Shown: one piece after another, positions 52,566 through 58,114 of the stretch | Position numbering within the stretch: the first letter of the stretch is position 1 | How the letters are laid out: each line of letters opens with the position of its first letter | Translations under genes and position numbers: made by a program | Notes under the pieces: model-generated | Told to the model about the DNA's origin: nothing | Databases searched by the model: none | What the model saw: the letters and a program-made list of their open reading frames with translations, nothing else | Assembly (NCBI RefSeq): GCF_000415985.1 | Contig: NZ_KE356561.1 | Coordinates: forward strand, 699,347-760,567 | DNA: 61,221 bases | Origin: Haloquadratum walsbyi J07HQW2 | Lineage (GTDB): Archaea; Halobacteriota; Halobacteria; Halobacteriales; Haloferacaceae | Direction of reading: 5' to 3'

Positions 52566-53309
52566 CTAAAGATCCATAGCACCGTTCACATCGATAACCT
52601 CACCTGAGATATATGATGCTTCTCCACTTGCGAGGAACTTCACCACGTGCGAGATATCTTGAACATCACCAAACCGACTCATTGGGATATCATCTCGAAT
52701 TGAATCTTTGACAGTATCAGGCACATCTGCAAGCATATCGGTTTTGGTAAACCCTGGTGCAACTGAATTTGCTGTTGACCCTGATGGCGCAAGTTCAAGT
52801 GCGAGCGTGCGCGTGAATCCAAAAATGCCTGACTTTGAGGTTGCATAGTTTGCCTGCCCAAAGTTACCCTGTTTTCCGACGATTGAAGAGATATTGATTA
52901 ATCGTCCTTGGTCTGATGATTTGATATCGCTGAAGAAAGCTTTTGTTGCATTAAACGTCCCGTTGAGGTTCACATCAATGACCGACTTCCACTGATCGGG
53001 CGTCATCTTCTCAAATGTCGTGTCCTTGGTAATGCCGGCATTATTAATCAAAATATCAATTGACCCAAATTCATCATGGACATGGTCCCGCATAGATTTG
53101 ATTGCTGAAAAATCGGTGACATCTGCCTGAGCGGTAATCGCAGTACCACCGGCATCACGAATCGTCTCAACGACATCATTTGCTTCTGCCTGTGATGATC
53201 GGTAGTTAACCGCTACATTGACCTCCTCACCAGCCAGTTCCTCAGCAATGCCACGACCAATGCCCCGCGATGCACCCGTAATAACGCAGGTTCTATTTTC
53301 GAGGTTCAT
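52566..53309 (-). CDS. phaB: Acetoacetyl-CoA reductase (PhaB/FabG type SDR)
   Basis: A 247-residue short-chain dehydrogenase producing (R)-3-hydroxyacyl-CoA with NADPH. Cofactor motif GASRGIGRGIAEE (about 11-23), NNAGI, catalytic Ser in NISSIVG, and Tyr/Lys in YATSK. The Arg/Tyr-Arg-Ser in NYRSS suits NADPH. Sequence alone does not separate PhaB from FabG, but the adjacent phaCE, phaP and thiolase genes favour PhaB. Starts at one of two consecutive ATG codons (53309 or 53312). Confidence 0.85.
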   Translation of the reverse strand: MNLENRTCVITGASRGIGRGIAEELAGEEVNVAVNYRSSQAEANDVVETIRDAGGTAITAQADVTDFSAIKSMRDHVHDEFGSIDILINNAGITKDTTFEKMTPDQWKSVIDVNLNGTFNATKAFFSDIKSSDQGRLINISSIVGKQGNFGQANYATSKSGIFGFTRTLALELAPSGSTANSVAPGFTKTDMLADVPDTVKDSIRDDIPMSRFGDVQDISHVVKFLASGEASYISGEVIDVNGAMDL

Positions 53310-53495
53310 CATTATGATAGTCCTGCTGTTCAGTGATCTGCCCAGCAGATAATCCATATTATGATACTACATTGATAATATTTTGGTAGGTATAGAAGGA
53401 TTTGCTGATAATCACATATCGATATATTATACCATATTAGGATTATTTTCCACTCATACAGATGCTCGAGTAGTTAGTATCTATCGTGATTGAGA

Positions 53496-54923
53496 TTATT
53501 GCTCGGTCACCTCACTCGCACGCTCACTCCACTCACGAAGCCGTGATGCACTAACCTCGATTGTCTCAGCGAGCGTGTCAGGATCAGCTGCGGCAAGACC
53601 GGCAACCGTCTCAATGCCTGCATCCTCCAACTGCTCACTGTATGCCGGTCCAATGCCCTGAATTGATTCTAATTCAGGTTTTTCTGCAGACTCAGTCGTC
53701 GTGTCTGCTTGCTCTGTGCTCCTCTCACCCTCATTAGAGTCGGTATCGTCACCAACAGGAATCTCAACAGCAGTATCATCAACAACTTCCGTTGCCCCAT
53801 CTGTTGAGAGACTTGAAGCTGACTCAACGGCTGAACGCTCAGCAAACCATCCAGCAACATCTGGCCAAAGTTCGGCGTGTGAGCTACTTGAGACAGATAA
53901 TCCGATATGTCCGGTTGATGCCTCCATAATTTCGGTATCCGAACTCGGAATGACGTCATTAAACGGTCGAGACGCTTCCGGTGGGATGAGATGGTCATAC
54001 TCGCCCATCACTTGCAACACTGGCATATCCAATTCAGATAATTCGACTGACTCGCCACCGAGTTCAAGTGTATCACGATAGAGTTGATTTTCCTGGTAGA
54101 TCTTTTCAAGAAACTCGACATATGCCGTTCCTGCAACATCAATTCCATCAGAGAGCCACCGTTCCATTCGTGAGAAATTCTCAACGAAGTCCTGATCATC
54201 GAGTTTGTCGTACAGCGTCGTGTATTTTGTAATATAATTATTAACAGGATCCATCAGAGCAAATCCAGTATCAAGGAACTCTGCGGGGACATTCCCGAAG
54301 GCATCAGTGACGTCCTGTGGGGAATAATACTCATCATCGCCCCATTCTTCAAGAATGCCACCAGTTCCAGCAAAGCAAAGTCCTGCTGCCATCAATCCAA
54401 GATTGCGAACTTTCTCGGGATTAATGGCACTGTACATGACACTCATTGTCCCGCCCATACAGTATCCCAGTAGATTAATTGAATCTACGTTTGATTGATC
54501 AGTGACTGCGTCAACACAGTTGTCGATATATCGGTTGACATAATCATCAAGAGATAATGCCTGATCAAGTAGCGATGGCTCACCCCAATCAATCAGATAC
54601 ACATCAAAACCTGCTTCAAGTAGCCGCCGAACAACAGATCGATCAGCTTGAAGATCGAGAATATATGGTCGATTGATCAACGCATAAACAATAAGAATTG
54701 GTACGTCGTGGTTTTCTTCTGCGTCGATGCCTGCTGCTTCAGCATCATATCGAAGTAATTCAAGCTTATTTTCCTCATAGACGACGTTACTTGGCGTTTC
54801 ACCAACCTCGATAGTTGCCATCGTCTCCAGGCTTTCTGGAAGTGCTTGCATCGACTCAGTTGTCTCAGTCATTGAGTTGATGAAGTTTCGTTGTGCGTCA
54901 AGTGGGTATGTGAACGGATTCAT
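53496..54923 (-). CDS. phaC: Class III PHA synthase catalytic subunit with HhH tail
   Basis: A 475-residue alpha/beta hydrolase that polymerises (R)-3-hydroxyacyl-CoA at the granule surface. The catalytic triad is Cys155 (GYCMGG), Asp310 (GEYDHLIP) and His339 (STGHIGL). The synthase core ends near 364. After an acidic, disordered linker (about 365-416) comes a helix-hairpin-helix-like domain, residues 417-468 ([19 protein letters not shown], then [15 protein letters not shown]). Such DUF4332-like domains bind DNA or proteins. Starts in an ATGA overlap with phaE (54920-54923), consistent with an equimolar PhaEC complex. Confidence 0.92.
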
Positions 54924-55474
54924 GTCTGATCAATAAGCTGATCTAGTTTTGATTCAATTGATTGCTGTCGTCGTTCAACCTCCACAAGTCGTTCACCGAC
55001 CTCACGAATATCGCCGGTTGTCGCAAATCCCATCCCGTGAAGCGTGTCCTCAGCCGTGTCATTCATCTGTTGTTGGAAATCAAGAACGCTATCGAGATTT
55101 TGACCGGTCATTGCTGCAAATGCGGTTGTTGACATCGACTCTTTGAACGCCTCATTTGCGGTATTCAGCCAAATATCACGGAATTCTGTCGGGTCGACGT
55201 CTTCACCCTCAATTATATCTCCCATCCGTTCATATGAGGATTCTGCAGCCTCCATCCAGGACTCATACGCTTGTGCAGCACCTTCTGAGGCATCATCGAA
55301 TTGCTCCTCAGAAAACATCTCATCGGCTGAATCCAACATCATGTCCGCAAACTCAGACTGTGCGTCCATGTTACGTTTGAGTGTGTCGGTGTATGCTTCT
55401 GAAAACTGTTCGAACATCGATTCCATCATTTCGGTCCCCATCATCTCTGCGGGATCTCCTGTATTATTGCTCAT
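54920..55474 (-). CDS. phaE: PHA synthase subunit PhaE
   Basis: A 184-residue acidic helical protein. It has the haloarchaeal PhaE layout: a Met-rich start ([14 protein letters not shown]), [13 protein letters not shown] near 107-119 and a C-terminal amphipathic helix [25 protein letters not shown]. It is required with PhaC for synthase activity in haloarchaea. No catalytic residues. Begins 172 bp after phaP, so it may be read from the phaRP promoter or its own. Confidence 0.9.
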
Positions 55475-55646: not shown

Positions 55647-56111
55647 TTACTCGTCCATGGAGATCGGCACCGGTGTGCCGTCACTCATTGACTCTGCGTT
55701 TGTCATCGCCTGAGACATCATCTCATACATCTCATCGACCATCTCCGCCTGTGTCTCAGCGAGTTCATCATAGCCGTCAATTGCGTCTTCTGCCGAATCC
55801 TCGAGTGACTCCCACGTTTCACCGTGCACATCAACTAATGCATCGTATTGATCATCGATAGCACTTCGAAGTTCCTCAGTGGTGTCGTCTGGAAGTCCAG
55901 GCTCCATTCCATCAATAGCAGTGTGAAATGCACGACGAGTCATCTCAACACTATCTTGCTGAGCACTTGCAGTTGGTTCAAAACTTTCAATAACTGCCTC
56001 GGCAGCTTCTTTCTGAAATTCAATCGACTGGGTTACCGCTTCGCGACTTGCTTCCATGTACGTGCGTTGCATCTCGAACATACTGCTGAGTGGATTTTGA
56101 TCTGTATTCAT
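55647..56111 (-). CDS. phaP: Phasin PhaP
   Basis: A 154-residue acidic all-helical protein (MQRTYMEASREAVTQSIEFQKEAAEAV, EMTRRAFHTAIDGME). It should coat PHA granules. It begins 6 nt after the AbrB-type gene, as in the phaRP pair of Haloferax mediterranei. Confidence 0.85.
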   Translation of the reverse strand: MNTDQNPLSSMFEMQRTYMEASREAVTQSIEFQKEAAEAVIESFEPTASAQQDSVEMTRRAFHTAIDGMEPGLPDDTTEELRSAIDDQYDALVDVHGETWESLEDSAEDAIDGYDELAETQAEMVDEMYEMMSQAMTNAESMSDGTPVPISMDE

Positions 56112-56117
56112 TGTAAA

Positions 56118-56432
56118 TCACCGATTTCGTTTGATTGGGATGACAACCGTTTGGACAATGTCGCCCTCCTCAATGTCAAGTGCTTCTCGCTCCGCATCGG
56201 GGATCGAAATACGCCCACCGCTTTGGACGCGTGTTTTGAACATCGCTGTTCCCATACTCATGGCACTCAACTGTGAGAAATCACCGAGTCCGCCAGCGTT
56301 CATATTACTCTGCATGAACTGCTCGAATAGTTCCTGCTGGCTCTGTGTCGCATTCTGTGTTGCTTCCTGAAACTGTTTTGCAACAGCCGCCGGCGACCAG
56401 ATGGGCGTCTCATCATCCGAATCGTCTGTCAT
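56118..56432 (-). CDS. phaR: AbrB-family regulator PhaR
   Basis: A 104-residue protein with an N-terminal acidic, Gln-rich helical part (1-60) and a C-terminal SpoVT/AbrB swapped hairpin (FKTRVQSGGRISIPDAER, then LDIEEGDIVQTVVIP). In Haloferax mediterranei the equivalent PhaR binds the phaRP promoter and links granule state to transcription. The start at 56432 is preferred; the upstream 17-residue extension is non-haloarchaeal in composition and would cover a putative TATA box. Confidence 0.82.
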   Translation of the reverse strand: MTDDSDDETPIWSPAAVAKQFQEATQNATQSQQELFEQFMQSNMNAGGLGDFSQLSAMSMGTAMFKTRVQSGGRISIPDAEREALDIEEGDIVQTVVIPIKRNR

Positions 56433-56457
56433 CTCAGTTTTACATACTCGGCTTGAG

Positions 56458-56468
56458 ATGATAAATCT
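56458..56468 (-). promoter_or_regulatory. TATA-like box of phaR
   Basis: GATTTATCATC on the minus strand, about 31 nt before the phaR ATG, suiting a leaderless transcript. A direct repeat lies just upstream. Confidence 0.35.
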
Positions 56469-56477
56469 TGTTATTAT

Positions 56478-56509
56478 TACCATTTGTTACCACTGAGTAC
56501 CATTTGTTG
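56478..56509. promoter_or_regulatory. Direct repeat TACCATTTGTT, 20-bp period
   Basis: TACCATTTGTT occurs at 56478-56488 and again at 56498-56508, so corresponding bases are exactly 20 bp (two helical turns) apart. It lies directly upstream of the putative phaR TATA box and in the spacer shared with the divergent MaoC gene. Candidate PhaR operator. Confidence 0.45.
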
Positions 56510-56603
56510 GTTTTGTATGTTTCAGATATACTTTCAGTTCCGTCGATTGGCATTTTATGATTAATTCACAACTGCTATCAATGATGATTACATCTAGCCT
56601 GAT

Positions 56604-57269
56604 ATGGCATCTGATCAGTCATCAATGACTGACTCATTCGAAGGAATAGCGACTGCGTGGTTAGAGTCATCAACAGCTGTTTCAAAGAATATGGCTCAAA
56701 TGTACTCAAATATTGCTGAAGCCAATCGTGAGTTGTGGTCACAATCGATGGATCCAGCAGAATCGACTGATCGAGAGTCCGGTGATGACTCAATCGCTTA
56801 CAGTAAGTCTTCATGGACAACGGTTCAATCAGTTGACACAGTTGAAGAACTCGGCGTTGGTAGTGAGGTAGTATTCAGAAAAGAATTGACTGATAGTGAT
56901 GTTCACGCATTTGCAGATATCAGTGGTGACACGAATCGACTTCATCTTGATGATGAATTCGCCTCAGATACCCGGTTTGGTCGCCGAATTGTCCATGGCA
57001 CATTGGCGTCTGGATTAATTAGCTCTGCACTTGCGCGTCTCCCCGGGATGATCGTATACCTGTCACAGGATCTTGATTTTGAGCGCCCTGTCGATATTGG
57101 AACGACTGTTGAGGCAACTGTTAGTATTATTGAAACGCTTGACGGTGATCGATATCGACTCAACACGACAGTGCAAACAGCGGAGGGGACTACTGTCATT
57201 GATGGTGAGGCGGTTGTCCTTATCGATTCACCACCAGCAACCGAGACAGACACAGACACGAGTGAGTAA
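56604..57269 (+). CDS. phaJ: MaoC-type (R)-enoyl-CoA hydratase with phasin-like N terminus
   Basis: A 221-residue two-part protein. Residues 75-210 form a hot-dog MaoC hydratase with the catalytic motif DISGDTNRLHLDD (Asp109 and His114), FGRRIVHGTLASGL and an acidic end. It would hydrate enoyl-CoA to (R)-3-hydroxyacyl-CoA for PhaC. Residues 8-50 (MTDSFEGIATAWLESSTAV...) are amphipathic helix resembling the phasin/PhaE start, followed by an acidic linker (51-68). Simple PhaJ proteins lack this part, so it may tether the enzyme to granules. Divergent from phaR. The symbol is by function, not orthology. Confidence 0.8.
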   Translation: MASDQSSMTDSFEGIATAWLESSTAVSKNMAQMYSNIAEANRELWSQSMDPAESTDRESGDDSIAYSKSSWTTVQSVDTVEELGVGSEVVFRKELTDSDVHAFADISGDTNRLHLDDEFASDTRFGRRIVHGTLASGLISSALARLPGMIVYLSQDLDFERPVDIGTTVEATVSIIETLDGDRYRLNTTVQTAEGTTVIDGEAVVLIDSPPATETDTDTSE

Positions 57270-57355: not shown

Positions 57356-58114
57356 ATGCATGTTGGTGTCTCGATTGGTCCATATCTTGACCGCATCGAA
57401 ACTATTCCAGACGCTTTTGAGTACGTCGAAATCGGACTTGGTGAGGGTGAACAACCGATTGGAGAAATTAATGTTAATTCGGTTTCAGAACGGCTTCACA
57501 AACGAAATCTTGATGTCACCGTACATCTCCCATATTATCAGCCGCTCGCAACCGCCGTAGATACAATCGACTCTGCGACACTCTCATATATTGATTCTGT
57601 GTTAGAGACAGCAAGTGCTCTTGGCGCAACAACCGCTGTAGCACATCCGACACGTCGTGGAATTGCTCCGAGCTCGGAGCAATTTCATGAGCAACTACGT
57701 AGCCTCGTTGAAATTGGACATACGCATGATGTCACCGTCTGTTTTGAAACAACTGGGTATGCTGGTGACCTCGCACTTGACCGCGTGGGAGCGACAATTG
57801 ATGATGTCGATGGTGCAATTTGTCTTGATATTGGGTACGCATATCTCGAAGCAGGGGTAAGTGGCATACGAACACTGCTCACACAGTATGGTGATATTGT
57901 TGAACACCTCCACGTTCACGATGGTCGACATCGTGGCGATACACATATTCCAGTCGGTAGCGGTGACGTTGCAATGGCTGACATTGGGTCGCTTCTGCAG
58001 GAGTTCGTTCCTGAAGCAACGGCAACAATTGAAGTGTTCACTGATGACGCCGCACATCTCACAGACTCACGACAACGATTTATTGAGCTGATTGAAGATG
58101 TCGACAGTCAGTAA
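57356..58114 (+). CDS. Sugar phosphate isomerase/epimerase-like TIM barrel
   Basis: A 252-residue protein of the xylose isomerase/endonuclease IV barrel superfamily. Metal-site elements are spaced along the barrel: VHLPYYQPLA, AVAHPTRRG, CFETTGYAGDLAL, CLDIGYAYLE, EHLHVHDGRHRGDTHIPVGSGDV and ATIEVFTD. HxHDxxxxxDxHxPxGxGxxD is typical of this group. The superfamily includes isomerases, epimerases and AP endonucleases; substrate is not inferable. It follows the MaoC gene by 86 bp on the same strand. Confidence 0.82.
   Translation: MHVGVSIGPYLDRIETIPDAFEYVEIGLGEGEQPIGEINVNSVSERLHKRNLDVTVHLPYYQPLATAVDTIDSATLSYIDSVLETASALGATTAVAHPTRRGIAPSSEQFHEQLRSLVEIGHTHDVTVCFETTGYAGDLALDRVGATIDDVDGAICLDIGYAYLEAGVSGIRTLLTQYGDIVEHLHVHDGRHRGDTHIPVGSGDVAMADIGSLLQEFVPEATATIEVFTDDAAHLTDSRQRFIELIEDVDSQ

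Follow-up and report, generated by a model that had tools for sequence, protein, structure and literature searches.

A conserved N-terminal amphipathic helix on haloarchaeal PhaJ1 as a granule-docking candidate

PhaJ1 of Haloquadratum walsbyi J07HQW2, a MaoC-type hydratase encoded beside the pha gene cluster, carries a conserved N-terminal amphipathic helix. This helix is most likely a granule-docking candidate that resembles phasins in its physics, while descent from a phasin is unsupported. We assign a probability of roughly 0.58 to a mechanism in which the helix docks the enzyme on the PHA granule, the acidic linker that follows it serves as a tether and released monomer is dehydrated. The amphipathic helix would lie on the polymer surface, or would pack against the helical coat proteins PhaP and PhaE, and the acidic linker would be a flexible tether that lets the hydratase work at the granule surface. 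Docked in this way, PhaJ1 would dehydrate (R)-3-hydroxyacyl-CoA released from the polymer, yielding enoyl-CoA for beta-oxidation; because the reaction is reversible, some monomer feeding would be expected too. The enzyme and its cluster have been described before; for the conserved docking-candidate helix, no description of a PhaJ1 N-terminal helix or of a role for it was found in the available portions of the literature searched. We infer the docking function from conservation, physics, distribution and natural dissociations.

The window, by which we mean the whole 61,221-nucleotide stretch of DNA that was analysed, contains the gene as a single open frame of 221 codons that occupies exactly 56604-57269 on the forward strand (Table 1). 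It is phaJ1 and is predicted from its fold and its Asp-His dyad to encode an (R)-enoyl-CoA hydratase. Pfam places the MaoC domain PF01575 at residues 92-184 (E 3.8e-19), so the MaoC hydratase proposed in the initial annotation stands. The AlphaFold2 model runs from a helix at residues 13-46 through coil into a hot-dog domain with pLDDT mostly >93, which matches PhaJ of A. caviae (1iq6_B) with a Z of 18.3 and an rmsd of 1.2 over 128 residues; the matches in this fold search span residues from about 36-83 onward. The two proteins share the catalytic fold at 38% identity, and D109 and H114 have the spacing of 5 that also separates Asp31 and His36, the dyad of A. caviae PhaJ as quoted in the available text of PMC4823750. 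Both residues are kept in 53/53 cluster copies and 47/47 other homologs. The A. caviae enzyme, a monomer supplier, has 134 aa and no N-terminal helix, whereas the window's PhaJ1 has 221 aa and bears one. Between helix and catalytic domain, residues 47-70 hold 6 D/E and 2 K/R among 24 positions, in agreement with the acidic linker annotated initially. The closest named relative is the protein of Haloquadratum walsbyi J07HQW1 (89%).

Table 1. Coordinates of phaJ1, its parts and the neighbouring pha genes within the window
Feature	Position	Strand	Basis
phaJ1 ortholog, predicted MaoC-type (R)-enoyl-CoA hydratase, 221 aa	56604..57269	+	ORF; PF01575; structure match
N-terminal amphipathic helix module, residues 13-46	56640..56741	+	AlphaFold, conservation, hydrophobic moment, dN/dS
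Acidic linker, residues 47-70	56742..56813	+	Charge count; coil in model; least constrained
Hot-dog catalytic domain, residues 71-208	56814..57227	+	Pfam, AlphaFold2, structure match
Catalytic dyad D109...H114	56928..56945	+	Conservation; spacing of PhaJ dyad, A. caviae
Divergent phaR/phaJ1 intergenic region	56433..56603	.	11-nt direct repeat inside
phaR, AbrB-type regulator	56118..56432	-	TIGR01439 E 4.3e-5, under curated cut-off
phaP, haloarchaeal phasin, all helical	55647..56111	-	Cluster position; AlphaFold
phaE, class III synthase subunit	54920..55474	-	PF09712 E 1.6e-7
phaC, class III PHA synthase, C-terminal HHH domain	53496..54923	-	TIGR01836 389 bits; PF14520 E 2e-10
fabG/phaB-type 3-oxoacyl reductase	52566..53357	-	PF00106 E 6.8e-59

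In the window, phaJ1 adjoins and diverges from phaR-phaP-phaE-phaC, and the available text of a review (PMC7137286) already lists H. walsbyi among the species with maoC-phaR-phaP-phaE-phaC. Among 100 homolog loci, hand-picked among the matches listed, 53 adjoin phaE plus phaR or phaP, and most of those 53 again have phaJ divergent from phaR-phaP-phaE-phaC. For phaR we took the family start given by alignment, the ATG at 56432, rather than the 56483 of the ORF listing. Between phaR and phaJ1, the 11-nt sequence TACCATTTGTT occurs twice as a direct repeat (56478-56488 and 56498-56508, 20 nt apart), which may be a PhaR operator. AlphaFold models PhaP as three helices (7-42, 44-72 and 75-145), and the score of PhaC lies above the TIGR01836 cut-off of 365 bits. 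At residues 417-469, after an acidic linker, PhaC also carries a helix-hairpin-helix domain; this C-terminal domain was found by motif in 47/58 sampled PhaC and by eye in 9 further, and the available text of PMC12028471 already notes it for H. mediterranei PhaC. A TIM-barrel AP_endonuc_2 protein also adjoins phaJ1 (57356-58114, +), with a weak CbiR-like match of 64 bits against a cut-off of 105.

The window's phaJ1 is the ortholog of PhaJ1 from Haloferax mediterranei (HFX_5217), which the available text of PMC4823750 describes as a 219-aa protein encoded by the first gene of the pha cluster. The same source establishes R-specific hydratase activity for that protein and reports it as the sole PHA-granule-associated member of the five R-hydratases of the species, hence its name. 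A position on the granule surface, proposed in the initial annotation, was thus already known for an ortholog. The likeness between the two proteins rests on length (219 versus 221 aa), the MaoC domain and the pha cluster; function was assayed in the H. mediterranei protein, and the Haloquadratum protein is known here from its sequence. The helix was seen in a second Haloferax ortholog, L061, which comes from the same genus as genome G027 and is likewise 219 aa long; its N-terminus continues like the Haloferax larsenii plasmid copy. In the H. larsenii MaoC (NZ_CP078064.1 84711-85316), the annotated start lies ~18 residues later than the start chosen for L061, where we took the earlier start in a longer open frame, near-identical to the H. 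larsenii copy. The helix of the H. larsenii protein is retained with either start.

The direction of flux is where the initial annotation, which assigned the hydratase to monomer supply, needs revision. According to the available text of PMC4823750, deletion of phaJ1 in H. mediterranei kept PHBV content (58.3% versus 58.8%) and cut PHA mobilization from 25.71% to 5.66%, which indicates that the main in vivo job of PhaJ1 in that species is draining the granule. The same text reports that PHBV content and 3HV did not fall when phaJ1 was deleted, nor when the whole set of five phaJ genes was, and that complementation with phaJ1 in a strain without five phaJ and two phaB brought back little PHV (0.07 g/L). 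From these reports, the flux that matters for H. mediterranei PhaJ1 would be degradation, accompanied by a small supply capacity.

The helix module follows the cluster closely, being present in 51/53 cluster copies versus 15/47 other homologs. In a scan of 40 genomes, we obtained 14 module matches at E <= 1e-5, spread over 12 genomes; the 12 checked, all but G187:C3 and G173:C2, are on MaoC proteins. Matches in G007 and G430 were rejected as chance, as they lie in a frame without MaoC and a stop falls inside the G007 match. A weak match was seen in G426 (E 0.08). PhaE is present in 12/12 module genomes and absent from 27/28 genomes without the module; the sole module-less genome with PhaE is G430, which is 76% complete. 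Fisher tests, in which related genomes are not independent, gave p 2.3e-9 for module versus PhaE and p 2.0e-12 for module versus cluster. A tree-based test of the association found only 1-2 supported independent pairs, and because the counts are confounded by descent, we do not take the ties to the cluster and to PhaE as proof. In 26 genomes chosen mainly for orphan or unusual copies, PhaC was present in 26/26 and PhaE in 25/26. Of the module copies outside the cluster, one (L120) adjoins phaR close to the end of a contig, and at two orphan module-gene loci neither the ORF list nor a similarity search revealed adjacent granule genes.

A special case of docking would have the helix bind PhaE specifically, making the granule link wholly indirect. 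This suits the 12/12 module genomes with PhaE, as well as genome G063, which has PhaC but neither PhaE nor the module and whose MaoC is of the YHS type. However, PhaE is separated from PhaC in one genome only, and PhaP and PhaR, which travel with PhaE in the cluster, would suit as partners equally well. We regard a dedicated PhaE partner as somewhat unlikely.

Outside the cluster, the N-terminus of this enzyme family varies: the 47 non-cluster homologs comprise 15 with the helix, 8 with YHS, 7 with CBS and 17 with none, types that were labelled from motifs and that Pfam bore out for YHS in one protein and for CBS in two. Haloarchaeal YHS-MaoC and CBS-MaoC proteins belong to the catalytic family of PhaJ1 and fall in one tree with it, YHS or CBS replacing the helix. 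The catalytic-domain tree, which has few columns and unsettled bootstrap values, requires five changes of N-terminal type and places the YHS types in one supported group. YHS-MaoC adjoins phaC without phaE in 5/8 loci, standing beside a second phaC at L070, L073, L074, L134 and L138 and alone at L071, L072 and L136. Three YHS-MaoC copies, from genomes that belong to different genera and families, have the same sequence in the catalytic part, a pattern suggestive of recent transfer. One or more CBS domains are fused to MaoC at L076, L116, L122, L125, L146-L148 and L159 (2087-2980). The CBS-type homolog on a plasmid of H. mediterranei is probably PhaJ5, reported in the available literature as not granule-bound. 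It has CBS domains where PhaJ1 has its helix, a contrast that fits the docking reading.

Helix and enzyme also come apart in nature. Two copies from genus g49 (L124 and L133) have lost the module and kept the enzyme, and they still lie inside a pha cluster. Genome G171 has phaR, phaP, phaE and phaC together with a divergent 182-aa MaoC frame without a stop (L152 2477-3022), in which E, T, Q and P replace H114, N111, H131 and Y152, respectively. Those four positions are unchanged in 53/53 and 47/47 other copies, a count free of the built-in motif invariance of 19 added loci, which were located by the motif GDTN..H. The G171 protein keeps 4/4 invariant module columns but only 26/50 catalytic columns, with invariance defined on 28 family members. 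In 146 genomes belonging to the same family no close relative turned up, and, as a single case, this copy may be a decaying gene; taken at face value, it points to a helix that is useful apart from catalysis.

With G171 retaining the helix after losing its catalytic residues, and g49 retaining a helix-less enzyme, the helix of ~30 residues can also be read as an autonomous granule-docking module, born in MaoC hydratases apart from phasins, with a coat function of its own and with the N-terminus as a swappable address slot. The helix would then address the granule, and YHS or CBS domains would place the same reaction under other control. We put this forward tentatively, as an idea more apt to fail than to hold.

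The N-terminal segment is a constrained amphipathic helix, beyond chance. In a conservation alignment of 40 of 54 rows, from which rows without the module were excluded, Trp19 is invariant in 40/40 copies and columns A40, N41 and A43 are at least 90% conserved, within a consensus that reads roughly AW....S......S...ANRAA..A. The PhaJ1 N-terminus shows a hydrophobic 3-4 spacing (F12, I15, W19, V26, M30, M33, I37, A40 and L44), and its hydrophobic moment peaks at 100 degrees with a value of 0.335. The moment lies above that of shuffled sequences (z > 1.64) in 49/52 sequences, compared with 0/52 linkers and 0/54 catalytic-domain helices; the W...ANR motif was the anchor for excising these 52 segments, and two module-less cluster copies were omitted. 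Mean charge per residue across the family is +0.007 for the helix, -0.181 for the linker, -0.112 for the catalytic part and -0.107 for the whole protein. The dN/dS of the helix (0.034-0.071) is similar to that of the catalytic part (0.038-0.055), and the linker (0.037-0.40) is the least constrained part of PhaJ1; these are rough values from three Haloquadratum-type sequences (the window and two close relatives) with few changes per segment. AlphaFold2 gives the helix low confidence, with pLDDT of 49-57 per block over residues 13-46, and predicts no partner for it. Nine of the 52 rows, window included, have exactly 7 additional residues in the module, an insertion of a length that keeps the helical phase.

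The main rival to docking takes the same helix as a coiled-coil oligomerisation element that would make PhaJ1 a tetramer or a higher assembly, with granule association coming from elsewhere or from a partner bound by the hot-dog domain. The 3-4 hydrophobic spacing and the 7-residue indel suit a coiled coil as well as they suit a surface helix, and coiled coils are reported to be common in phasins too in the available text of PMC5658603. The tie between module and PhaE and the near-neutral charge of the helix are compatible with oligomerisation but not predicted by it, and we judge this explanation unlikely.

The initial annotation likened the N-terminus to a phasin or PhaE helix; the constrained amphipathic helix at residues 13-46 was borne out, albeit at low pLDDT, and sequence similarity to phasins or to PhaE was not. 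Residues 1-60 had no phasin match in Pfam and NCBIfam, where only a stray AcrF31 appeared at E 0.09, and phasin profiles matched 0/12 N-termini and 0/40 full proteins. This test is weak because true haloarchaeal PhaP score poorly as well: Phasin_2 reaches E 0.1 in just 12/32 PhaP orthologs (best E 3.6e-4). We therefore rejected the missing Pfam and NCBIfam match as a disproof of phasin kinship. In a profile-profile comparison with the cluster's own protein families, a 33-column helix core gave E 0.032 for PhaE (6/100 column shuffles as good), 0.084 for PhaP (3/100), 0.12 for PhaR (9/100) and 0.48 for PhaC (58/100). A helix-PhaR match obtained from whole alignments (score 16.2, against up to 10.1 in 20 shuffles) was discarded, as the initiator Met opens both alignments; once that residue is removed the score drops to 10.2, and 9/100 shuffles are as good.

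As a positive control for the same method (hhalign), the N-termini of PhaC and PhaP matched at E 4.9e-7, with 0/60 shuffles as good. PhaC and PhaP (54 aligned each) have in common an N-terminal segment NPF...D.QR...E, and a phasin-like segment on the synthase is better supported than one on the hydratase. The likeness between PhaJ1 and phasins is one of physics: PhaP residues 4-42 have a moment of 0.353, nearly equal to that of the PhaJ1 helix, and haloarchaeal PhaP and bacterial phasins (Phasin_2 and PhaF) are built of amphipathic helices, as is the PhaJ1 N-terminus. PhaP shares the gene cluster with PhaJ1 and is entirely helical, without detectable sequence relation to the PhaJ1 helix. That a phasin-derived tail puts the hydratase on the granule and channels monomer into PhaEC during synthesis is highly doubtful: the granule location of the ortholog and the PHV regained on phaJ1 complementation would suit it, but PHBV and 3HV were unharmed by phaJ1 or all-phaJ deletion in H. 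mediterranei (all in the available text of PMC4823750), and phasin homology was undetected in profile searches and in the profile-profile comparison.

Taken together, we count for docking the orthology within the cluster, the invariant W19, the hydrophobic moment, the neutral charge, the low dN/dS, the co-occurrence with PhaE and the G171 copy, and we count against it the missing phasin similarity, the low pLDDT of the helix and its lack of a predicted partner, the module on 15 non-cluster MaoC proteins, the shared descent behind the ties to the cluster and to PhaE, the g49 copies and the standing of G171 as a single, perhaps decaying, case. The interest of the finding rests mainly on the two natural dissociations and on the swapped N-terminal domains; were the helix no more than an oligomerisation element, this would be a PhaJ1 like any other. 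The helix lends itself to a clean and inexpensive test in a haloarchaeon amenable to genetic manipulation. Should the docking reading be true, this short helix could serve as a small tag with which to decorate bioplastic granules in near-saturated salt, and docking through it would account for granule draining by only one of the several hydratases.
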